Shown piece after piece: positions 1 to 35,513 of a DNA stretch of 36,562 bases. Position 1 is the first letter of the stretch. Each line of letters starts with the position of its first letter. The notes below the pieces were generated by a model. The model saw nothing but the letters and a program-made list of their open reading frames with translations. It did no database searches and was not told where the DNA came from. This DNA is from Bryobacteraceae bacterium (lineage in GTDB: Bacteria; Acidobacteriota; Terriglobia; Bryobacterales; Bryobacteraceae). The DNA lies in the NCBI GenBank assembly GCA_013388415.1, contig JACADU010000009.1, positions 1 through 36,562 on the forward strand, written 5' to 3'. A program made the position numbers and the translations under genes.

Positions 1-56
1 CCACCCTTTCATCGCGGGCTCTTCCGCCCGGTTTCATCCGGCAATCGCCGTAGAAC

Positions 57-94
57 GGAAGGGGGGATCGCCCAATCCTTGCGATCCCCCTTCC
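57..94 (-). terminator. Strong hairpin downstream of nrdJ
   Basis: Arms at 57-71 and 81-94 pair almost perfectly (about 14 base pairs with one bulged G) around a 9-base loop. It lies about 95 bases beyond the nrdJ stop codon. No T-run follows on the minus strand, so it may be a terminator of unusual form or an mRNA 3'-end stabiliser. The rest of 1-188 holds no gene that I can support. Confidence 0.5.
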
Positions 95-188
95 ATTTCA
101 CTCCAACAAAGGCCGTCAGGCTGCGACGAGCCGCCGGTTCCGTTCCGTTGCGGCCGCGGCTCTGCAAAGTCAACGGCTTGCACGGCAG

Positions 189-3026
189 CTAGGAGCAGCC
201 GCTGGTTCCGCCGCAGTTCTCGCACTTGTAGCAGGAGCCGTTGCGGATCATCAAACCACCGCATTCCGAGCAGACAGGGGCGTCTTCCATCCCTTCGGCG
301 GGAGCGAACTGGAGCTTCTGCTGAGGTTCAGGTTCGGTGGGCCGCAGTCTGGTGGTGACGGTGTCGGAGACTTCATTTTCGACGGCGTTCGGGCCGATGA
401 ACTTCACCGCCAGCCAGCGGAAGATGTAGTCCATGATCGACTTCGCGTACGGGACCTGCGGGTTGCCGGTGTAGCCGCTAGGCTCGAAACGCACATGGCT
501 GAACTTGTCGACGAAGAATTTCAGCGGGACGCCGTATTGCAGCCCGTAGCTGACGGCGGTGGCGAAGCTGTCCATCAGGCCGGAGATTGTGGAGCCTTCT
601 TTGGCCATGGTGATGAAGATCTCGCCGGGGCTGCCGTCCTCGAACAGGCCCACAGTGATATAGCCTTCGTGGCCGGCGATTGAGAACTTGTGGGTGATGG
701 CCTGGCGCTCGTCGGGGAGCTTGCGCCTCACGGGGCGGTAGACGATCTTTTCTTCGACGCGCACGGGCGCCATTGTCCCGGCTTTTTTCTCGCCTTTGGC
801 GCTGCCTGAGCTGAGCGGCTGGACGCGCTTGGAGTTGTCGCGATAGATTGCCACAGCCTTCAAGCCAAGCTTCCAGCTCTCGATGTAGGCGTTCATGATG
901 TCCTCGGGGGTGGACTCCTCGGGCATATTGATGGTTTTCGAGATCGCGCCGGAGATGAATGGCTGCACGGCGGCCATCATGCGCACGTGGCCCATGTGGT
1001 GAATGAAGCGCCTGCCGTTTGGCGCCTTGAAGCTGCAATCGAAGACCGGCAGGTGCTCGTCCTTAAGACCTGGCGCGCCTTCGATCGTGCCCGTCTGGTC
1101 GATATGGTTCACGATCTTTTCGACGACATCGGGCGCGTAGCCCAGCCGGATGAGGGCCTGAGGCACGGTGTTGTTGACGATCTTGATGACGCCGCCGCCG
1201 ACGAGTTTCTTGTACTTGACGAGCGCGAGGTCGGGCTCGATGCCGGTGGTGTCGCAGTCCATCATGAAGCCGATGGTGCCGGTGGGGGCGATGACGGTCG
1301 TTTGCGCGTTGCGGAAGCCGGTGCGCTGGCCAAGTTCGTAGGCGAGTTTCCAGACTGAGGCGGCGGCTTCGAACAGGGGGGGCGGAACGAGCTTGGAGTC
1401 GATGGCGTTTACGGCCTCGCCGTGCATGCGAATCACGTCGAGAAACGGCTCTTCATTGACGCCGTAGCCGGGGCAGGGGCCGACGACTTCGGCCACGCGG
1501 GCGCTGGTCAGATAGGCCTGGCCGCACATGACGGCGGTGATGGCGGCGGCCCACGCGCGGCCCTGGTCGCTGTCGTAAGGTACGCCCATCGACATCAGGA
1601 GGCTGCCGAGATTGGCGTAGCCGAGGCCGAGGGGGCGGAAATCGTGGCTGTTCCGCGCGATCTTCTCGGTGGGGTAACTGGCGTTATCGACGAGGATTTC
1701 CTGAGCGAGGATGATGGTGTCCACGGCGTGGCGGAAGGCCTCGACGTCGAACTGCCCGCCGGGGGCGACGAACTTCAAGAGGTTGAGCGAGGCGAGGTTA
1801 CAGGCCGAATCGTCGAGGAACATGTACTCCGAGCAGGGGTTGGAGGCATTGATGCGGCCAGTGTTCTTGGAAGTATGCCACTTGTTGATGGTGGTATCGA
1901 ACTGCATGCCGGGGTCGCCGCACTGCCAAGTGGCCTCCGCGATGGCTTTCAGCAGGTCGCGCGCCTCGTAGCGTTTCACGGGCTGGCCGGAGACGACGGA
2001 CTTGGTCCACCAGTCCTTGCCGTCGACGACAGCCTGCATGAACTCGTCGGTGGCTCGGACGCTGTTATTGGCGTTCTGGAAAAAGATGGAGGCGTAGGCC
2101 TCGCCGTCGAGGGAAGGGTCATAGCCGTTGTCGATGAGGACGTGGGCCTTGCGCTCTTCCTTCGCCTTGCACCAGATGAACTGTTCGATATCCGGGTGTT
2201 CGGCGTTCAGAATGACCATTTTGGCGGCGCGCCGGGTTTTGCCGCCGCTCTTGATGACGCCGGCGAAAGCGTCGAAACCCTTCATGAAGCTCAAGGGGCC
2301 TGACGCGCGCCCACCGCCCCAGAGCAGACCGTTTTCCTCGCGGAGGGTCGACAAGTTGGTGCCCGTTCCCGAGCCCCACTTGAAGAGCATGCCTTCAGTC
2401 TTGGCCAAGTCGAGGATTGACTCCAGAGAATCCTGCACGGAGTTGATGAAACAGGCTGAACACTGCGGCTTGTGGATGGAGCGGTCCAGTTTCTTGACCG
2501 TATCCGTCGCCTCGTCGTAGTACCAGCCGTAGCCCCTGTTCTCTTCCTTCACACCGACGTTGAACCAGACCGGCGAATTGAAGCAAGCCTTCTGAGTGAG
2601 CATCAGGTGGGCGAGTTCATTCCTGAAATTGGCGGCGTCTTCGAGGCTCTTGAAGTACCGCCCCTCGATGCCCCATTCGGCGATGGTGTCGACGACGCGG
2701 TGGACCAACTGGGCCACGCTGCGCTCCCGCTCTGGGGTTCCCATTCTGCCGTGGAAGTACTTGCTCACCACGATGTTCGTGGCGGTCTGCGACCAGTCCG
2801 CCGGAACCTCGGCGTCCTTCTGCTCGAAGATGACAGCGCCCTTCGAGTCGGTGATGCTGGCGGTCCGCAGCTCCCATTTGACCTCGTCGTATGGGGTCCT
2901 TCCTCCCTCCAACCGCGCCGTGAAATAGCGCGGGAAGGTCAGACCAATGCGCTCCTCCTTCTTCAGATTCCGGCGGAACCTGTTGGCGTGCGCGCCCAAA
3001 TCAACGCTCAATTGTCCCATTTCCAA
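189..3026 (-). CDS. nrdJ: Adenosylcobalamin-dependent (class II) ribonucleotide reductase
   Basis: Reduces ribonucleotides to deoxyribonucleotides in the cytoplasm, using adenosylcobalamin to generate the radical, so it needs no oxygen and no small subunit. The 945-residue product has the class II NrdJ layout: an N-terminal Cys in QCSACFINS, the glycine-rich stretch WGSGTGTN, the NPCSE active-site motif with Cys398, and a C-terminal tail of about 28 residues with paired cysteines (CSECGG, CYKCENCGG) of the type that re-reduces the active site or binds zinc. The ATG at 3026 has an AGGAG ribosome site a few bases upstream. It is transcribed alone, with a hairpin after the stop. The upstream region carries an NrdR-like box and a palindrome. 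No other RNR gene is in the window. Family assignment is firm. Confidence 0.96.
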   Translation of the reverse strand: MEMGQLSVDLGAHANRFRRNLKKEERIGLTFPRYFTARLEGGRTPYDEVKWELRTASITDSKGAVIFEQKDAEVPADWSQTATNIVVSKYFHGRMGTPERERSVAQLVHRVVDTIAEWGIEGRYFKSLEDAANFRNELAHLMLTQKACFNSPVWFNVGVKEENRGYGWYYDEATDTVKKLDRSIHKPQCSACFINSVQDSLESILDLAKTEGMLFKWGSGTGTNLSTLREENGLLWGGGRASGPLSFMKGFDAFAGVIKSGGKTRRAAKMVILNAEHPDIEQFIWCKAKEERKAHVLIDNGYDPSLDGEAYASIFFQNANNSVRATDEFMQAVVDGKDWWTKSVVSGQPVKRYEARDLLKAIAEATWQCGDPGMQFDTTINKWHTSKNTGRINASNPCSEYMFLDDSACNLASLNLLKFVAPGGQFDVEAFRHAVDTIILAQEILVDNASYPTEKIARNSHDFRPLGLGYANLGSLLMSMGVPYDSDQGRAWAAAITAVMCGQAYLTSARVAEVVGPCPGYGVNEEPFLDVIRMHGEAVNAIDSKLVPPPLFEAAASVWKLAYELGQRTGFRNAQTTVIAPTGTIGFMMDCDTTGIEPDLALVKYKKLVGGGVIKIVNNTVPQALIRLGYAPDVVEKIVNHIDQTGTIEGAPGLKDEHLPVFDCSFKAPNGRRFIHHMGHVRMMAAVQPFISGAISKTINMPEESTPEDIMNAYIESWKLGLKAVAIYRDNSKRVQPLSSGSAKGEKKAGTMAPVRVEEKIVYRPVRRKLPDERQAITHKFSIAGHEGYITVGLFEDGSPGEIFITMAKEGSTISGLMDSFATAVSYGLQYGVPLKFFVDKFSHVRFEPSGYTGNPQVPYAKSIMDYIFRWLAVKFIGPNAVENEVSDTVTTRLRPTEPEPQQKLQFAPAEGMEDAPVCSECGGLMIRNGSCYKCENCGGTSGCS

Positions 3027-25597: not shown

Positions 25598-25674
25598 CGC
25601 GTCAGCGCCAAAAACGCGATATCCTGAGCCTTGGGAGTCAGGCCATTCTCAAACTGACGGGTGTGCGGAAATCC

Positions 25675-25702
25675 TTGCGCGCACCCTAACGTAGTACAAA
25701 AT
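25675..25702 (+). promoter_or_regulatory. Possible promoter of the mre-rod operon
   Basis: TTGCGC at 25675 and CAAAAT at 25697 are 16 bases apart, 12 bases before the mreB ATG. Both hexamers are weak. A 7-bp hairpin (arms 25661-25667 and 25678-25684) overlaps the -35 and may end the transcript upstream or modulate this promoter. Confidence 0.3.
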
Positions 25703-25714
25703 CCTTCCGAAACA

Positions 25715-26740
<1,026 letters not shown>

Positions 26741-26764
26741 CCCATCTGGGCGCGACGAGGGCGC

Positions 26765-27988
26765 ATGGAATCCTTCCCGAGCCGGTACCGAAACCTCAGC
26801 GTCCTGCTGCTGCTTCTGGTGGCCCAACTGTTGCTGCTGGCCTACCAGGTGAAGACGAGCCAGGACGTGCGGCTCATCCGGCTGTGGGCGGTGACGGCGG
26901 TGACGCCGGTTGCCCGCGCGATCGAATGGGTGAGGAGCGGCGTCGCCGGCGCCTGGGAAAACGTCTTCGTGCTCGGCGACGTCCGGGCCGAAAACAAGCA
27001 ATTGAAACGCGAATTGGCCGAACTCCGGCTGAAGAACCAGCTCCTTGCCGCTGAGTTACAGACCGCCGACCGCACCAAGGCGTTGATCGAGTTCCGCTCG
27101 CAGGTGCCGTCGAAGACCATCGCCGCCAGAATCATCGGCACCGGCACCGGCGCCAACGCCCGCACGGTCTTTGTCGACCGCGGCAGCGTCGAGGGCGTCA
27201 AGCGCGGCATGGCAGCCATTACGGACAAGGGCATCGTCGGCAAAGTGGTCGCTGCTTACCCCACTGCCTCGCTCGTGCAATTGATCACCGAGCAGGGTTC
27301 CGCCGCCGGAGTCATTTCCCAGAAGAACCGCGTGAGAGGAACGCTGAAGGCCCAGGGCTCGGGGACGCTGATTGTCGACTACATCCGGAACGAGGAGAAG
27401 GTCGAAATCGGGGAGTGGTTCTACACGAGCGGGACCGACCGCATTTATCCGCGGGGACTGCCTGTCGGACGCGTCAAGTCGACGCGAGAGGGCCGGGGTT
27501 CAAAAGAGGTCATTATCGAGCCGAGCGGGTTGCAGGGCGGGCTCGAGGAAATGCTCATCGTGCTGGACGGCGTTCATGGCTCCGTTCCCGAACCTGAGAC
27601 GCCTCCTTCCCCAGGGATCGCCATCCTGCCGGCTCCGCCGGAGGCGGCTCCTGCCGCACAAACAGCGCAGCCCGTGGGGGCTCAGCAGGCAGGTGGAACC
27701 CAGCAATCCGCGGCTCCGCCCGCTTCGGCTGCGCCATCTCCGAGCCAGCCTGCGCAGGCGTCCTCGAACGGGCTCGCGACAGATGCCGACCGGCTTCGCG
27801 AAAGGTATCGCCGGGTGGGCGAGTCGCAGGGCATCGTTCTCGGCACGACGAAGCTCCGCGTGCCGGATTTCAACAAGGCTCCCGCCGACCCTCCGAGACC
27901 CGCCCCACCAAAGCCTGAAGCGCCGCCGCCCGCCTCGCCCAAACCGGGCGCTGCCGATCAGACGCCGCCGGCGGTTCCCAAGCAATGA
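26765..27988 (+). CDS. mreC: Cell shape protein MreC
   Basis: A 407-residue bitopic protein that links MreB to periplasmic wall synthases and activates PBP2. It has one membrane helix (VLLLLLVAQLLLLAYQV, about 12-28), a coiled coil (ENKQLKRELAELRLKNQLLAAELQ) and the double beta-barrel core (VDRGSVEGVKRGMAAITDKGIVGKV). About 130 residues after the core form a Pro/Ala/Gln-rich, probably disordered tail in the periplasm, longer than in model MreC proteins. It follows mreB by 24 bases and overlaps mreD by ATGA. Confidence 0.95.
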   Translation: MESFPSRYRNLSVLLLLLVAQLLLLAYQVKTSQDVRLIRLWAVTAVTPVARAIEWVRSGVAGAWENVFVLGDVRAENKQLKRELAELRLKNQLLAAELQTADRTKALIEFRSQVPSKTIAARIIGTGTGANARTVFVDRGSVEGVKRGMAAITDKGIVGKVVAAYPTASLVQLITEQGSAAGVISQKNRVRGTLKAQGSGTLIVDYIRNEEKVEIGEWFYTSGTDRIYPRGLPVGRVKSTREGRGSKEVIIEPSGLQGGLEEMLIVLDGVHGSVPEPETPPSPGIAILPAPPEAAPAAQTAQPVGAQQAGGTQQSAAPPASAAPSPSQPAQASSNGLATDADRLRERYRRVGESQGIVLGTTKLRVPDFNKAPADPPRPAPPKPEAPPPASPKPGAADQTPPAVPKQ

Positions 27989-28521
27989 GCTCGTACGATG
28001 AGAGCCTGATTCCGAATGCTCCGCGGCGGCAGAAGGTTTCTCGTTTCCGCATCGCGGCGTGGGTTCTTATTCCTCTGGCGGCGATCCTGTTTCAGGTTTA
28101 CGTCCGGCGGTTTGCGGAGTTCCTCGGATACCTGGAGCTCCCCCTGCTCGTCACGGTTTACTTCTCGCTGATGCGCCGGCAACCGGTGGGCGGGGCGTTG
28201 ATTGGGGCGCTGATCGGCTTGGCGCAGGACTCGCTGTCGCAGCATCCGCTGGGAATGTTCGGAATCGTCAAGACCCTGGTCGGCTACTTCGCCGCCTCGA
28301 TCAGCATGAGGTTCGATGTCGACAATCACGCGCTCCGGTTCATCCTCAGCTTCTTTTTCTTTCTGTTTCACCAATTCTTCTTCTGGGTGCTGACCCAGGC
28401 GCTGCTCGGCCAGTCGCTTGACGTGCCGATCCCGCAGAGCATCATTTTCGCTTTCCTGAACGCTGTTGTCGCGGTTCCCCTATTCATCATCTTGGATAGA
28501 CTGAAGACTGAGGAGCGCTGA
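27985..28521 (+). CDS. mreD: Rod shape-determining protein MreD
   Basis: A 178-residue inner-membrane protein with about five to six helices (AAWVLIPLAAILFQVYV, GYLELPLLVTVYF, FILSFFFFLFHQFFFW and others), the usual MreD size and layout. It is a partner of MreC in the elongation complex. The order of genes decides the call, since MreD sequences vary widely. Its ATG overlaps the mreC TGA. Confidence 0.9.
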   Translation: MSSYDESLIPNAPRRQKVSRFRIAAWVLIPLAAILFQVYVRRFAEFLGYLELPLLVTVYFSLMRRQPVGGALIGALIGLAQDSLSQHPLGMFGIVKTLVGYFAASISMRFDVDNHALRFILSFFFFLFHQFFFWVLTQALLGQSLDVPIPQSIIFAFLNAVVAVPLFIILDRLKTEER

Positions 28522-28532
28522 ATCGTTGGCCT

Positions 28533-30437
28533 ATGGCCGGCAGAACCATCCCCCAAGAGCGGCCGCCCGATTCCACCGAATCGCGTCCACTGGTGCGCGA
28601 CGACATCAAATTCGCGCAGAGCAAGATTGCCGCGTTTCAATACGTCACCGTGGCCATCTTCGTCTTCCTGATCACCGGCTACTGGGACCTCCAGGTCCTG
28701 AAGGAGGAGATCTTCAAGGCGAAAGCCCAGCAGAATCAAATCAAGTCCCTGCCGGTGCCCGCGCCTCGCGGCCGAATCCTCGACCGCGACGGACGCGTCA
28801 TCGTGGACAACCACTCCTCTTACCGGCTCATTCTGTCCCGCGAGAGCCTGCGCGAGGAGCATATCGCGCCCATCGCCATGGGGCTCAACCTCGACGCCGA
28901 CGAGTTGATGCGCAAAGTCGACCGCTTCCGCAAGCAGCCCACATACTTCACCATTCCGCTCAAGGAAGACCTGACGCCGGACGAGCTTACGTTTGTGGAG
29001 GCTCACCGCGGCGATGATGCGTTCCCGGAAATGGAGCTGATTCGAAGCCAGCATCGCCTGTATCCCCGCGATGGAGTCGCCGCTCACTTGCTCGGCTATA
29101 CGGGTGAAATCAATGATGCCGAGTTGAACAGCCAGGAGTTTGCGAAACACAACCCCGGCGAAATCATCGGAAAGATGGGCATCGAGCGCTTTTACAACGA
29201 TGTCCTCAGCGGCATCGACGGGCAGCGGCAGGTTCGAGTCGACAACCGCATGAACACGCGGGAAGTGCTCGGCATCAAGGAAGCTCAGCCCGGGCGTGAT
29301 CTTCGTCTCACCATCGATCTCGATTTGCAGGTGGTCGCCGAACTCGCCATGGAAGGCAAGAGCGGTGCGGTCGTCGCCCTCGATCCCAGGAATGGCGAGG
29401 TCCTGGCGCTTGTTTCCACTCCCGCTTACGACCCGAATCACTTCGTCGGGAGAATCAACGCGCGTGAATGGCGCGCCTTGAATGAGAACCCGAACCTCCC
29501 GCTGCTCAACCGGGCGATTCAGGCTCAGCTTGCCCCCGGCTCCACCTTTAAACCGATCATGGCCCTGGCGGGTTTGGAGGAGGGGGTGATTGACGAGACC
29601 ACCACCGTCTTCTGCCCGGGAAGCGCCACGTATTACGGCCGTACGTTCAAATGCCACAAGAAAGGCGGCCATGGTACGGTCAACCTGCACCGAGCCCTGG
29701 CTCAGTCCTGCGACGTGTTCTTTTATATGGTGGGCAACCGGCTTGGAATCGACAAGATCGCCAAGTACGCCGAGATGGCCGGTTTGGGCAAGGAGACAGG
29801 CATTGACCTGCCCCATGAAAAGGCCGGCGTGGTCCCCTCCAGCGCCTGGAAGGTCCGGCGCTACCGCGAGAAATGGTACGCCGGCGAAACCATCTCGGTT
29901 TCCATCGGCCAGGGCGCTCTGACGGTCACGCCTATCCAGTTGGCCCATGCCATCGGTGGAATCGTCACCGGCGGCGTCTGGATGAGGCCACATCTTGTCA
30001 AGGACGAAAAGCAGACGGTCCCGGCGCGGAAGGCTGAATTGAACTTGGAGAACGTCAACCGTGTGATGTACGGGATGTACGCGGTCGTCAACGAAGGCGG
30101 AACGGGCGCTGGATCCCGGATTCCCGGCGTTGAGTTCTCTGGCAAGACTGGTTCCGCTCAGCGCGCCTCCAACGAGTTCATGAAGAAGAAAGACCCCTCA
30201 GCCGACTATCGAGACGACGGCTGGTTCGTGGGCTTTGCCCCACGCTCGCAGCCCGAGATCGTTGTCGCCGCACTCTTCGAGCATGGCGAGCATGGCGATC
30301 TCGCGGCGCCGATTGTGCGCGATGTCATCAAGGCCTGGCACGACAAGAAAATCCGCCTCGAACGGCCGCGGCCTGCGCCGAGTCTCGCCAAGGCGCTCTC
30401 GCCGCTCCAACCTCTCTCCGGGAGTCCTGCCCGATAG
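28533..30437 (+). CDS. mrdA: Penicillin-binding protein 2 (peptidoglycan transpeptidase)
   Basis: A 634-residue class B PBP that cross-links peptidoglycan during elongation. It has one N-terminal membrane helix (VTVAIFVFLITGYWDLQV), the dimerisation/pedestal region starting PAPRGRILDRDGR, and the transpeptidase with Ser337 in GSTFKP (SxxK), S392-C-D (the SxN position) and Lys538 in SGKTGSAQ (KTG). The C-terminal 25 residues are basic and proline-rich. It lies between mreD and rodA, spaced by 11 and 2 bases. Confidence 0.96.
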   Translation: MAGRTIPQERPPDSTESRPLVRDDIKFAQSKIAAFQYVTVAIFVFLITGYWDLQVLKEEIFKAKAQQNQIKSLPVPAPRGRILDRDGRVIVDNHSSYRLILSRESLREEHIAPIAMGLNLDADELMRKVDRFRKQPTYFTIPLKEDLTPDELTFVEAHRGDDAFPEMELIRSQHRLYPRDGVAAHLLGYTGEINDAELNSQEFAKHNPGEIIGKMGIERFYNDVLSGIDGQRQVRVDNRMNTREVLGIKEAQPGRDLRLTIDLDLQVVAELAMEGKSGAVVALDPRNGEVLALVSTPAYDPNHFVGRINAREWRALNENPNLPLLNRAIQAQLAPGSTFKPIMALAGLEEGVIDETTTVFCPGSATYYGRTFKCHKKGGHGTVNLHRALAQSCDVFFYMVGNRLGIDKIAKYAEMAGLGKETGIDLPHEKAGVVPSSAWKVRRYREKWYAGETISVSIGQGALTVTPIQLAHAIGGIVTGGVWMRPHLVKDEKQTVPARKAELNLENVNRVMYGMYAVVNEGGTGAGSRIPGVEFSGKTGSAQRASNEFMKKKDPSADYRDDGWFVGFAPRSQPEIVVAALFEHGEHGDLAAPIVRDVIKAWHDKKIRLERPRPAPSLAKALSPLQPLSGSPAR

Positions 30438-30439
30438 CA

Positions 30440-31531
30440 ATGGCCGGATATCGCAGCTTCCGCGACTTCGATTGGGCCCTGATCATCCTGGCCGTGGCGA
30501 TTTGTGGACTGGGGATCCTGCAAATATACTCCGCCACGCTGGATACGGCCTTTCGAACGGCCTGGTGGAGGCAAATCGTCTGGATGGCCGTGGGCCTGGT
30601 GGTGATGTGGTTTTCGTCCCGGATCGATTACCATACGCTGATGGGGCAAGTCCCCATACTATATGGGCTTACGATTCTCCTCCTGGTCCTGACGCCGTTG
30701 TTTGGGCGCTTCGTCTGGGGGTCGAAGCGTTGGATCCCGGTTGCCTTTGGGTTCCACTTTCAGCCGTCGGAGTTTGCCAAACTAGTGATAATATTGCTTG
30801 TAGCCCGCTACCTGTCGGAAATGAACAAGGACCGGCTGGACCTGCGGGATGTGCTGCGGCTGGCAGGACTGGTCGGATTGCCTTGTGCGCTTGTGCTGGC
30901 CCAACCGGACTTGGGGACGTCGCTGACGTACATACCAGTCGTGGTAACGGGATTGTTTTTGGGCGGGATCCGCTGGCAGCATGCTGCCGCGATCATCGCT
31001 CTAGCGGTGGTATTGGCGCCTGTTAGCTACTTCCTGATGAAGCCTTATCAGAAGGCGCGGATTGAGAGTTTTTTCGATCCGCAGAAGGATCCAACCGGTA
31101 GGGGCTACCAGGTGATCCAATCGAAGATTGCCGTGGGCGCCGGAGGAATGTGGGGCGCTGGAGTCACGCAAGGCTCACAGACGCAACTCCGGTTTCTGCC
31201 GATCGCCCATACCGATTTCCTGATCTCGGCATTTGCCGAGGAGCATGGATTTGTCGGGGTCCTCGTACTTCTGGGGCTCTACTTCCTGCTATTGATGCAG
31301 ATTGTGCAAAACGCGCAGACAGCCCCTGATCGAGCCGGCATGTTCGTATGCATGGGAGTATGTTCGATTCTGCTGTTTCATGTCCTGGTCAACGCCGGCA
31401 TGGCGGTGGGCAGGATGCCGGTGGCCGGTATTCCGCTGCCGTTGATGAGCTACGGAGGGTCGAGCATGATTTCGTTCTTTATGATGCTGGGGCTGGTCCA
31501 CAATGTCCGGCTCCGGCGGTTTGTGTCGTGA
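30440..31531 (+). CDS. mrdB: Peptidoglycan glycosyltransferase RodA (SEDS family)
   Basis: A 363-residue polytopic SEDS protein that polymerises lipid II with PBP2. It has about ten membrane segments and the SEDS signatures WGSKRWIP, QPSEFAKL, QPDLGTSLTY and the late PLPLMSYGGSSM. The ATG at 30440 lies 2 bases after the mrdA stop. This closes the mre-rod operon. Confidence 0.96.
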   Translation: MAGYRSFRDFDWALIILAVAICGLGILQIYSATLDTAFRTAWWRQIVWMAVGLVVMWFSSRIDYHTLMGQVPILYGLTILLLVLTPLFGRFVWGSKRWIPVAFGFHFQPSEFAKLVIILLVARYLSEMNKDRLDLRDVLRLAGLVGLPCALVLAQPDLGTSLTYIPVVVTGLFLGGIRWQHAAAIIALAVVLAPVSYFLMKPYQKARIESFFDPQKDPTGRGYQVIQSKIAVGAGGMWGAGVTQGSQTQLRFLPIAHTDFLISAFAEEHGFVGVLVLLGLYFLLLMQIVQNAQTAPDRAGMFVCMGVCSILLFHVLVNAGMAVGRMPVAGIPLPLMSYGGSSMISFFMMLGLVHNVRLRRFVS

Positions 31532-31574: not shown

Positions 31575-31810
31575 ACAGGGATCGAATCCTCGGGATTATC
31601 GGCTGCTTCGGCGGCCCCGGTGAAAGGTCAGTTCCACCAGGATGTGAGAACGCTGGCCCGGACCGGCAAAGAGATTGTTTGAGCGAGCGGCGAATCTGAT
31701 CAAGTCAGCCGCGCAAAGACGCCAATCGGCGCCCCCTGGATAAGACGGCTTCCCTCGACCGGGCCGCTCCGGCCGCGCGCCGCTTCACCCGCCTGATGGA
31801 GGTGAAGACC

Positions 31811-34468
31811 ATGGTGTCGAAAGAATTGGTGGTCAGCCAGAACCGCCACGAGAAAAAAGTCGGCATTCTCGAAGATGGCCAACTGGTGGAGATCTATCTC
31901 CAGCGCGCCAACGAGTACTCTCTTGCCGGCAGCATTCACAAAGGCCGGGTCACCCGCGTCCTTCCTGGAATGCAGAGCGCGTTCGTCGATCTCGGCCTTG
32001 AACGCGACTGCTTCCTTTACGTTTCGGACTTTTTCGAGGAGAACGCCGACGAAATCGACCGCATCAGCGGGGACGACCGCGGGCGCGGGCGGCGTCACGG
32101 GCAGCAGAATCCGGCCTTGATCCAGCAGGCCGCTCCTTCAGCGGCGGTGTCGGAAGTGGCCGGGATTGAGCTTCCGCGCGTCGACGGGCCTGCGCCGGCC
32201 GAAGGCGCCGAGCCGGCCGACGACTCACAAGGCCGGGGGCGCGGTCGCCGCAGCCGCCGCCGCCGCCGCGGACGCGGGTTTCCGGAATCGAAGTATGCTT
32301 CCGAAGCTCCGCTGGCAGGCGCCAGCGAGCCGGGCGGCAACGAAGTGGATGAAGCGGCGGAAAGTGAATTCGCCGGCGATGCGGTGGAAGAGCCTCGGAC
32401 GAGCGGCGAGGACGAGGAGTTCCTCGTGCTTCCGGGGGAATCTCTGTCCAAGTACCGCCGCAGCGCGCCGGCTCCCACGGACGCCGCCGCGGAAGAAGTA
32501 GCCGGCCTGACTGCGGAGGAGATGGAACTCGCCGCGGAAGCCGCTGCCGAGGACGCCGCGGAGGCTTTGCTGGATCGCGTCGACGAGATAGACGAGCGCG
32601 AGGCTCACTCGGGCCTTGTCGAGTCCTTCGAGCCGGAGCAAGAGCCGGGCGTAGTGGATGAAGGGCCGGAGGCGGCCGCGGATGAAGAGGTCGAAGACTC
32701 CGTCGATGAGGACGAATTGGACGAGGTGGAGACGGAGGTCGAGGCTGAAGTACCCGAGGCGCGGCTTGAGCCGGAAACCGAGGTCTCCCTCTCCGCCGAG
32801 CCGTTCGCGGAGACCGCGGCCGGAGCTGAGGCGGGTATTGCCGCGGACACTTCGGCCGCCCCGGGTGAACCTGCCGGCGAAGCCGGCGAGGAGCCGGTCA
32901 CTGAAGAAGAACCTGAAGGTCCGGAGCCGGCTCGAATGCCGCAGAGCCTGACCGCGACGCTTCGCGCGCAGGGCGGCAGATTGCCGCACAGGATCTCCCG
33001 CAGAAGCCGGCGCCGCCGCGGCGGCCGCGGCCCGGAGGTCGAGGCGCTGTCCGCCCCGGCGGAGCCGCCGGCGCCGTTGGAGGAACGTCCAATCAATCTC
33101 GCCGAGTTTGGCGAATCCATCGAAATCGCTCGTCCGGCGCGGGAGCCTGCGCCGCCTTCTCCTGGCCGCCCGGAACGCACCGAAGGGGACCGCGACCGCG
33201 GTGGACGCGGCCGCAGGGACCGCGACCGCGCCGAACGCGGCGAGCGGGAACGCGAACGGCCCGCCCTGCCCTCGATCGCTGAACTTCTGAAGGAGGGGCA
33301 GGAGATCATCGTTCAGATCGCCAAGGAACCACTCGGCCAAAAGGGCGCGCGCATCACCTCTCACATCGCTCTGCCGGGCCGCTACGTCGTCTATATGCCC
33401 ACGGTCGATCACCTGGGCGTTTCCCGCAAGATCTCAACCGACGAGGAGCGCCAGCGCCTGAAGCGGATTCTGCAGCGTCATCGTGAAGGCGTGCAGGGCG
33501 GCTACATCATGCGCACGGCGGGGGAGGGCCGCACCGAAGAGGATATCGCCGCCGACATGCGCTATCTGGCCAACCTCTGGCTCGACATCCGCGAGAAAGC
33601 CGAAAAGCGCCGTGCGCCCGCGCTTCTCCATCACGACGTTGAGATCGTGGAGCGGCTTCTGCGCGATCAACTGACCGAAGGCTTCAAGGCGGTCTGGGTC
33701 GACAATGAGGATCTCTACGAGCAGGTTCTGCACGCCGTGGAGAGACTTCAACCCGCGCTCCTGGGCCGGGTCAAGCTCTACACGAGGCCCGAACCGATCT
33801 TCGAGGCGTTTGGCATCACCCAGGAACTCGAGAAGGCGCTGCGTCCCAAAGTCTGGCTGAAATCGGGCGGCTACATCGTCATCAATCAGACGGAGGCGCT
33901 CGTCGCAATCGACATCAATACGGGCAAGTATGTCGGCAAGTCCAACAAGCTCGAGGATACGATCGTCAAGACAAATCTCGAGGCGGTGAAAGAAATTGTC
34001 CGGCAATTGAGGCTTCGCGATCTGGGCGGCATCATCGTGATCGACTTCATCGACATGGAGGAGCGCAAGAATCGCCAGAAAGTGATGCAGGCGCTCGAAG
34101 ATGCCATGCGGGCCGACAAGGCTCCTTACAAGGTGCTCCAGTTTAACGATTTCGGCTTGGTCGCGATTACGCGCAAGCGTGTCAAGCAATCTCTTGAACG
34201 CGCGCTCTGCTCGCCCTGCCCGTATTGTGAGGGCGCCGGCTACGTCAAGAGCGTCCAGACGGTCATCGGCGAGATCCTGACTGAAGCCCAGAAGTACGCC
34301 AAGGTCGTCGACACCAAGGATGTCGTCTGCCGCGCGAACCCGGAAGTGGCGCGAGTCCTCAAGTCAACCGAAAACGAATATCTCGAAGAGCTCGAAGAGA
34401 TCCTCGGCAGACCGGTCGCCGTCATCAGCGACCCGAATCTGCACCAGGAGAAGTTCGACCTGGCATAG
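31811..34468 (+). CDS. rng: Ribonuclease E/G with large insertion in the S1 domain
   Basis: An 885-residue endoribonuclease for rRNA maturation and mRNA decay. The start at 31811 has a near-perfect GGAGGTGA ribosome site; an ATG at 31796 would place that site inside the gene. The S1 RNA-binding domain begins normally (SIHKGRVTRVLPGMQSAFVDLGLERDCFLYVSDFF, to about residue 80), is then interrupted by about 400 residues of acidic Ala/Glu/Pro-rich sequence with arginine-rich patches (SRRRRRGRGF near the start, a block of RD/RE repeats at the end), and resumes at LPSIAELLKEGQEIIVQI (residue 486). The DNase I-like catalytic aspartates are Asp701 (AIDINTGK) and Asp745 (VIDFIDMEE), and CPYC (803-806) is the zinc link. 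It ends soon after this, like RNase G; the disordered arm of RNase E is replaced by the insertion. The symbol rne is equally possible. Confidence 0.93.
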   Translation: MVSKELVVSQNRHEKKVGILEDGQLVEIYLQRANEYSLAGSIHKGRVTRVLPGMQSAFVDLGLERDCFLYVSDFFEENADEIDRISGDDRGRGRRHGQQNPALIQQAAPSAAVSEVAGIELPRVDGPAPAEGAEPADDSQGRGRGRRSRRRRRGRGFPESKYASEAPLAGASEPGGNEVDEAAESEFAGDAVEEPRTSGEDEEFLVLPGESLSKYRRSAPAPTDAAAEEVAGLTAEEMELAAEAAAEDAAEALLDRVDEIDEREAHSGLVESFEPEQEPGVVDEGPEAAADEEVEDSVDEDELDEVETEVEAEVPEARLEPETEVSLSAEPFAETAAGAEAGIAADTSAAPGEPAGEAGEEPVTEEEPEGPEPARMPQSLTATLRAQGGRLPHRISRRSRRRRGGRGPEVEALSAPAEPPAPLEERPINLAEFGESIEIARPAREPAPPSPGRPERTEGDRDRGGRGRRDRDRAERGERERERPALPSIAELLKEGQEIIVQIAKEPLGQKGARITSHIALPGRYVVYMPTVDHLGVSRKISTDEERQRLKRILQRHREGVQGGYIMRTAGEGRTEEDIAADMRYLANLWLDIREKAEKRRAPALLHHDVEIVERLLRDQLTEGFKAVWVDNEDLYEQVLHAVERLQPALLGRVKLYTRPEPIFEAFGITQELEKALRPKVWLKSGGYIVINQTEALVAIDINTGKYVGKSNKLEDTIVKTNLEAVKEIVRQLRLRDLGGIIVIDFIDMEERKNRQKVMQALEDAMRADKAPYKVLQFNDFGLVAITRKRVKQSLERALCSPCPYCEGAGYVKSVQTVIGEILTEAQKYAKVVDTKDVVCRANPEVARVLKSTENEYLEELEEILGRPVAVISDPNLHQEKFDLA

Positions 34469-35423: not shown

Positions 35424-35513
35424 GGAGAGGTGGCCGAGTGGTTGAAGGCGCACGCTTGGAAAGCGTGTATACGGGAAACTGTATCGAGGGTTCGAATCCC
35501 TCCCTCTCCGCCA
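35424..35513 (+). tRNA. tRNA-Ser (anticodon GGA)
   Basis: A 90-base tRNA with paired acceptor ends GGAGAGG (35424-35430) and CCTCTCC (35503-35509), discriminator G and encoded CCA (35511-35513). The anticodon stem CACGC/GCGTG encloses TTGGAAA, with GGA at 35458-35460. A long variable arm and TTCGAATCC T-loop confirm class II tRNA-Ser. It reads UCC/UCU codons. Its 3' half is a likely attachment site for the integrase next to it. Confidence 0.97.

Follow-up and report, generated by a model that had tools for sequence, protein, structure and literature searches.

An RNase E/G family gene behind cell-shape genes

The window, by which we mean the whole 36,562-nucleotide stretch of Bryobacteraceae DNA analysed here, contains an rne/rng-family gene that encodes 885 amino acids in a frame open from ATG to stop, without an internal stop. 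The ATG at 31811 has a good ribosome-binding site, GGAGGTG, which the upstream ATG at 31796 overlaps. The gene, its subdivisions and its upstream neighbours are listed by window coordinate.

25661..31531, + strand: mreB-mreC-mreD-PBP2-rodA cell-shape genes, upstream of the enzyme gene (annotation of the window)
31811..34468, + strand: rne/rng-family gene, 885 amino acids plus stop
31811..32038, + strand: N-terminal strands and first half of the S1 domain, residues 1–76 (alignment, pLDDT)
32039..33265, + strand: disordered insertion in the S1 loop, residues 77–485 (alignment, profile break, pLDDT)
32231..32278, + strand: Arg-rich patch, putatively RNA-binding, residues 141–156 (sequence, class comparison)
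32279..32299, + strand: FPESKYA, second short motif, residues 157–163 (motif count)
32429..32455, + strand: LPGESLSKY, class-wide linear motif, residues 207–215 (sequence comparison)
32513..32593, + strand: predicted Ala/Glu-rich helix in the insert, residues 235–261 (10-residue-block pLDDT 64–83)
32987..33031, + strand: second Arg-rich patch, residues 393–407 (sequence)
33185..33259, + strand: RG/RD/RE-rich tail directly before S1 resumes, residues 459–483 (sequence)
33266..34465, + strand: rest of S1, 5′-sensor (R568, T569), catalytic domain (D701, D745), Zn-link (C803, C806) and C-terminal small domain, residues 486–885 (profile, alignment, model)

The Pfam profile PF10150 (RNase_E_G) matched residues 521–791 with 342 bits against a cut-off of 25.5, and the C-terminal RNase E/G domain PF20833 covered residues 802–884 of 885. 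The protein stops directly behind this small domain and has no C-terminal arm that could form a degradosome scaffold. Among NCBIfam equivalogs, RNase G (NF008689) scored best with 470.5 bits, under its curated cut-off of 594, followed by mycobacterial (301.1), cyanobacterial (270.5) and E. coli-type RNase E (266.1). D701, D745, R568, T569, C803 and C806 were invariant in an alignment of 48 sequences; transferring by alignment the roles of the E. coli residues, we take D701 and D745 to be catalytic, R568 and T569 to form the 5′-sensor and C803 and C806 to make the Zn-link.

A single PF10150 gene was found in the source assembly (4.35 Mb, 84% complete, 504 contigs). In a draw of 297 genomes from the phylum, the profile was detected in 255; the 33 genomes of the class Terriglobia in this draw carried one copy in 32 cases and two in one. 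The position behind rodA recurs: among 80 class loci, 64 have rodA upstream in the same orientation, 11 had too little DNA and 5 gave no match. Across 13 near genomes, including the source genome, PNPase exceeded the cut-off in 13 and RNase J in 11; RNase Y did so in 0 of the 13. Downstream of the gene, a tRNA-Ser (35424–35513, + strand) is closely followed by a phage-integrase frame (PF00589; 35561–36562, + strand) that is still open where the window stops; integrated elements commonly sit behind tRNA genes.

A long insertion inside the S1 domain

Residues 6–75 align with residues 12–81 of E. coli RNase E and residues 486–846 with 94–454 (alignment to the crystal-structure sequence). Residues ~77–485, about 400 in total, are therefore an addition compared with E. 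coli RNase E and lie inside S1. A first-pass annotation, made from the sequence alone, had described an RNase E/G with some 400 disordered residues (about 87–485) dividing its S1 domain; the intact open reading frame, the alignment and the pLDDT values agree with both the split and its position inside S1.

We built an AlphaFold2 model of the 885-residue protein with 48 homologues. Its pLDDT, averaged over 10-residue blocks, was 88–97 over residues 1–70 and at least 87 over residues 491–885. The E. coli S1 domain alone (1smx_B) matched the model with a Z score of 11.1 (rmsd 2.6, 78 of 81 residues) over a span of 40..527, and a Caulobacter fragment comprising S1 and the 5′-sensor (4oxp) matched with a Z score of 20.9 (179 of 200 residues, rmsd 2.6). 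E. coli RNase E (2bx2_L) gave a Z score of 32.5 over 451 residues at an rmsd of 13.9, probably because the domains sit differently. The matches to 1smx_B and 4oxp indicate that the two S1 halves join over the insert. Thus, in the model of the window protein, S1 forms a closed fold with the insertion in place, which is the question that the first-pass annotation had put to structure prediction (PMC3991390 gives background on S1 closure). Structure-match lists (VIA/Foldseek) were used solely for this closed fold. For a second orthologue (L089), the AlphaFold model had a mean pLDDT of 61 and a poorly predicted S1 domain, with residues 49–62 and 575–580, for example, below 50; this model, in which S1 is not confidently closed, counts against our best explanation.

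Disorder and charge layout of the insert

The insert is rich in E (19%), A (16%), R (12%), G (10%) and P (10%). Its pLDDT was below 50 across residues 91–468 apart from 204–215, 234–263 and a few single residues, and just two stretches longer than three residues rose past 50: 234–263, which forms the helix, and 204–215, which holds the class-wide motif. Arg-rich runs lie near the insert start (90–95), at 141–156, in the middle (393–407) and at the end (459–483), with acidic stretches between them.

We compared this layout across 81 distinct Terriglobia inserts, all of the same kind, of 265–863 residues (median 441). Charge segregation in the window insert (SD 4.85) exceeded that of all 1000 shuffles (maximum 3.70); across the set, charge segregation had a z above 3 in 69 of the 81 inserts. 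Scored as a 12-residue window with at least 6 K/R, an Arg-rich patch preceded the class-wide motif in 73 of the 81 inserts and followed it in 75. The stretch between motif and tail was net negative in 81/81, and the final 60 insert residues were net positive in 63/81. Composition, runs and charge shuffles thus support the original description of an acidic and arginine-rich insert with arginine patches at its start, middle and end. Most of the insert is unconserved, and its length varies about threefold.

A short motif shared across the class

The most conserved feature of the insert is a motif that the first-pass annotation missed, with the class consensus [VIL]LPGES[LI]xKY. LPGE[STFAV][LI] was present in 81/81 distinct class inserts (300 shuffles: mean 0.03, maximum 1), as was bare LPGE (300 shuffles: mean 1.9, maximum 9); the nine-residue form LPGE[ST][LI][ASRGK][KRN][YFH] was found in 74 of the 81 rather than in all. 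LPGE occurs once in 48 inserts, twice in 27 and three times in 6, such that 33/81 have two or three copies. The 81 motif sites comprise 81 different DNA 27-mers and 25 peptides, with LPGESLAKY written in 28 DNA spellings in 28 inserts, and this diversity of DNA points to selection on the peptide. In the AlphaFold2 model of the window protein, the motif reached a pLDDT just over 50, marginally above its surroundings; of the three copies in L089, the last (286–294) was just over 50 at residues 288–295 and the first two were not. Together with the basic/acidic/basic layout, the LPGES motifs answer the proposal that the arms of acidobacterial homologues be compared for conserved short motifs, and both are as expected of a scaffold.

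The 81 inserts include 34 that were not chosen by motif (the window, 13 named loci and 20 from the phylum draw), 16 from genomes without a strict DNA pattern of the motif and 31 chosen through the presence of that pattern; because the pattern was their selection criterion, the 31 are no independent evidence of universality. Rows of our own gene (L001, L144), of genomes already represented (L151, L165) and with inserts identical to those of L012 and L006 (L187 and L201) were left out, as were open reading frames cut by the end of a stretch (L147–L150, L153–L155, L157), seven of which were replaced as L207–L213. The set also lacks G372, which stayed unread, and G330, the insert of which was unreadable.

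At the DNA level, the strict pattern was present in 101 of 121 class genomes, and a reversed-pattern control in 0/121. Reading placed the site within rne in 46 genomes and, as far as read, only outside rne in G329 and G330; the remaining 53 of the 101 were counted by pattern alone. Among the 20 class genomes lacking the pattern, 18 had rne, and all 17 readable inserts contained LPGE variants. In one genome (G363; L236, L237), the profile hit the catalytic domain twice on one contig, over ranges that overlap, which may reflect a frameshift; an insert with the motif lay at the end of a different contig.

We also looked for other genes that carry the motif. In the source genome, the pattern search returned the rne site only. 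Of 40 stretches around pattern sites, 34 were rne inserts (L186 and L194, cut by contig ends, were judged by context); the other 6 lay outside rne in no consistent gene, and three of these fall in an odd-frame region shared within a single genus. Among the titles and abstracts of the open-access matches listed, we found no description of the LPGES motif or of an acidobacterial S1 insert, and by eye the motif did not match the published PNPase-binding motifs quoted in PMC11964227.

A second motif, [LF]P[ED]SK[YF] with near variants, occurred in 33/81 class inserts (shuffle mean 0.04), directly behind the Arg patch in most carriers. A third candidate near the insert end, A.[LV]R..., was dropped at 13/81 by the pattern used.

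Distribution and origin of the insertion

A profile of 13 compact homologues was interrupted at overlapping nodes in Terriglobia with full-length open reading frames, in numerous Acidobacteriota outside this class and, within the named set, in seven alphaproteobacteria (L067, L068, L070, L074–L076, L078). Compact acidobacterial enzymes do exist (L139, for example, has an open frame of 511 residues); among the Terriglobia sequences read, none was compact. LPGE was found in 0/30 inserts of other acidobacterial clades and in 0/7 alphaproteobacterial inserts. A sister acidobacterial clade carried FER[IV].D[DE] in 8 of 10 inserts (11 sites; L105, L116, L117, L127–L129, L134, L226), and another acidobacterial clade, with shorter inserts, carried ILP[EADPSR].[LF] in 11 of 20 (17 sites, mostly paired; L111, L118, L121, L123, L133, L217–L222).

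To place these enzymes, a quick IQ-TREE phylogeny was computed from enzyme cores (185 rows, near-duplicates removed; midpoint root for drawing only; five rows with an insert near zero, L147, L149 and L153–L155, are loci cut by the stretch end). A group of 132 rows (SH-aLRT 97) united the acidobacterial insert enzymes with Geobacter and E. coli RNase G; E. coli RNase E lay on the opposite side of the tree, as did the S1-insert enzymes of the alphaproteobacteria. Nearly all insert-bearing acidobacterial rows formed one group (100 rows, support 94), which suggests a single gain. From the opposite placement we conclude that the two insertions converged: judged by this tree, the acidobacterial S1 insertion is independent of the alphaproteobacterial one. 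The family profile upholds the RNase E/G identity given in the first-pass annotation; its comparison with RNase E fits less well, as NCBIfam scores and tree both put the enzyme closer to RNase G.

Other extensions were seen in the set. In six of seven alphaproteobacterial sequences, the Bradyrhizobium-type RNase E S1 inserts (L067, L070, L074–L076, L078) share a DDVLEEVPER-like conserved end, and His/Asp-rich runs occur in several of them. The acidobacterial enzyme L115 lacks an S1 insert; it has instead what looks like a real N-terminal arm, ~110 residues long, Arg-rich and acidic. Apparent N-terminal extensions of other acidobacterial enzymes (L106, L107, L015 and L017) were dismissed on visual inspection as read-through, in a different frame, of genes lying upstream.

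A putative scaffold within the S1 loop

Our preferred reading, to which we assign a probability of about 0.6, is that the gene product is an RNase E/G-family endoribonuclease with a complete set of catalytic residues, that it belongs to the RNase G side, and that it has evolved a degradosome-type, RNA-binding and partner-docking scaffold inside a surface loop of S1. The arm exits and re-enters the S1 fold beside the RNA channel; its Arg-rich patches would hold RNA near the channel, LPGES[LI]xKY would dock a protein partner, and the acidic middle may keep the arm extended and tune its charge. The feature is very probably functional, because it is class-wide and under selection. Since one short motif is present in every class member with a readable arm, and the arm otherwise changes fast, the arm is probably a docking platform. 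The closed S1 fold, the shared motifs and the charge layout lend partial support to the first-pass proposal that the arm could scaffold a degradosome or drive condensate formation. Weighing against our reading are the marginal pLDDT of the motif, its mismatch with the quoted PNPase-binding motifs, an RNase G score under the curated cut-off, and the absence of the nine-residue form from 7 and of the second motif from 48 of the 81 inserts.

Such a scaffold has to be weighed against a cis gate, in which the acidic stretches and the motif would fold back on the RNA channel or 5′-sensor and inhibit or tune cleavage, partner-free. Published inserts offer precedent: PMC4245959 reports that a helical part of the Caulobacter insert reaches into the site predicted for RNA, and that the Arabidopsis enzyme loses activity when its insert is deleted; the acidic middle of all 81 inserts would also suit a gate. 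However, one to three LPGE copies in inserts of 265–863 residues fit an array of docking sites better than a single gate. The low model confidence neither shows nor excludes docking of the insert on the core. Overall, we consider a gate unlikely.

Far less probable is that GC-driven growth of low-complexity sequence, neutral and functionless, has been tolerated in a loop at the surface. The roughly threefold length range and the lack of conservation over most of the insert are what such drift would leave, but 81 DNA spellings that keep the motif in 81/81 inserts are not, nor is charge segregation with z above 3 in 69/81. A frameshift or assembly artefact, the doubt raised with the original description, has nothing in its favour that we found beyond a source assembly fragmented into 504 contigs; the frame has no stop, the same architecture recurs in genomes from many assemblies and, because 81 distinct class inserts are of the same kind, we regard this explanation as ruled out.

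The scaffold reading can be taken further, though more tentatively and at slightly less than even odds. A Terriglobia enzyme of the RNase G lineage may have independently built a degradosome hub in the S1 loop, where [VIL]LPGES[LI]xKY would recruit one conserved partner beside the RNA channel and sister clades would use FER[IV]xD[DE] repeats or ILPx..[LF] pairs on the same loop. We found no described counterpart of an S1-loop hub among the matches listed in the open-access literature. If true, this would be a degradosome type in a phylum that PMC3071783 lists without degradosome potential. As the motif is conserved across the class sampled, its partner could be captured with a peptide bait.

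Comparison with known RNase E/G systems

By tree, the nearest characterised relative is E. coli RNase G (cafA/rng). The two genes share a position behind cell-shape genes, mreBCD-PBP2-rodA here and mreBCD-yhdE-rng in E. coli. Unlike scaffold-free E. coli RNase G, however, the window protein has ~400 extra residues, and it does not reach the curated RNase G score.

In E. coli, a C-terminal extension sets RNase E apart from RNase G, and PMC4435900 places the large noncatalytic scaffolds of RNase E-like enzymes at the N-terminus, the C-terminus or both. The insert resembles the C-terminal scaffold of E. coli and Pseudomonas RNase E in being a long disordered A/E/P/R-rich arm with Arg patches and short motifs (PMC4435900, PMC11964227), but differs in lying inside S1. 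By eye, no membrane-targeting or known partner motif was recognised in the insert. In P. aeruginosa, PMC11964227 shows RNA binding by Arg-rich motifs of RNase E, which also drive the formation of foci; PMC10412687 reports that RNase E condensates recruit and stimulate PNPase.

The closest precedent for the position is the S1 insertion of alphaproteobacterial and plant RNase E. According to PMC4245959, these insertions have about 50–150 residues, are charged and disordered and, location aside, share no other consistent property; Caulobacter RhlB binds an S1 plus 5′-sensor fragment that carries the insert. The seven alphaproteobacterial inserts read here had 166–260 residues by the cut used, longer than published. 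The window insert is likewise a highly charged, predicted disordered insertion in the same S1 loop, and so of the Caulobacter type. The position called unusual in the first-pass annotation is therefore so relative to E. coli, but not relative to these published enzymes. In contrast to them, the Terriglobia inserts have 265–863 residues, sit on the RNase G side and carry other motifs, and the window protein has no C-terminal arm.

These long inserts also contradict a size-based survey, PMC3071783, whose Table 2 gives the Fibrobacteres/Acidobacteria group 511 amino acids and a minus for degradosome potential. An insertion at this place in S1 has already been published and is thus not new. What appears to be new, from our sequence comparisons, is its placement on the RNase G side, where it is much longer than known S1 insertions, and a motif conserved across the class sampled.
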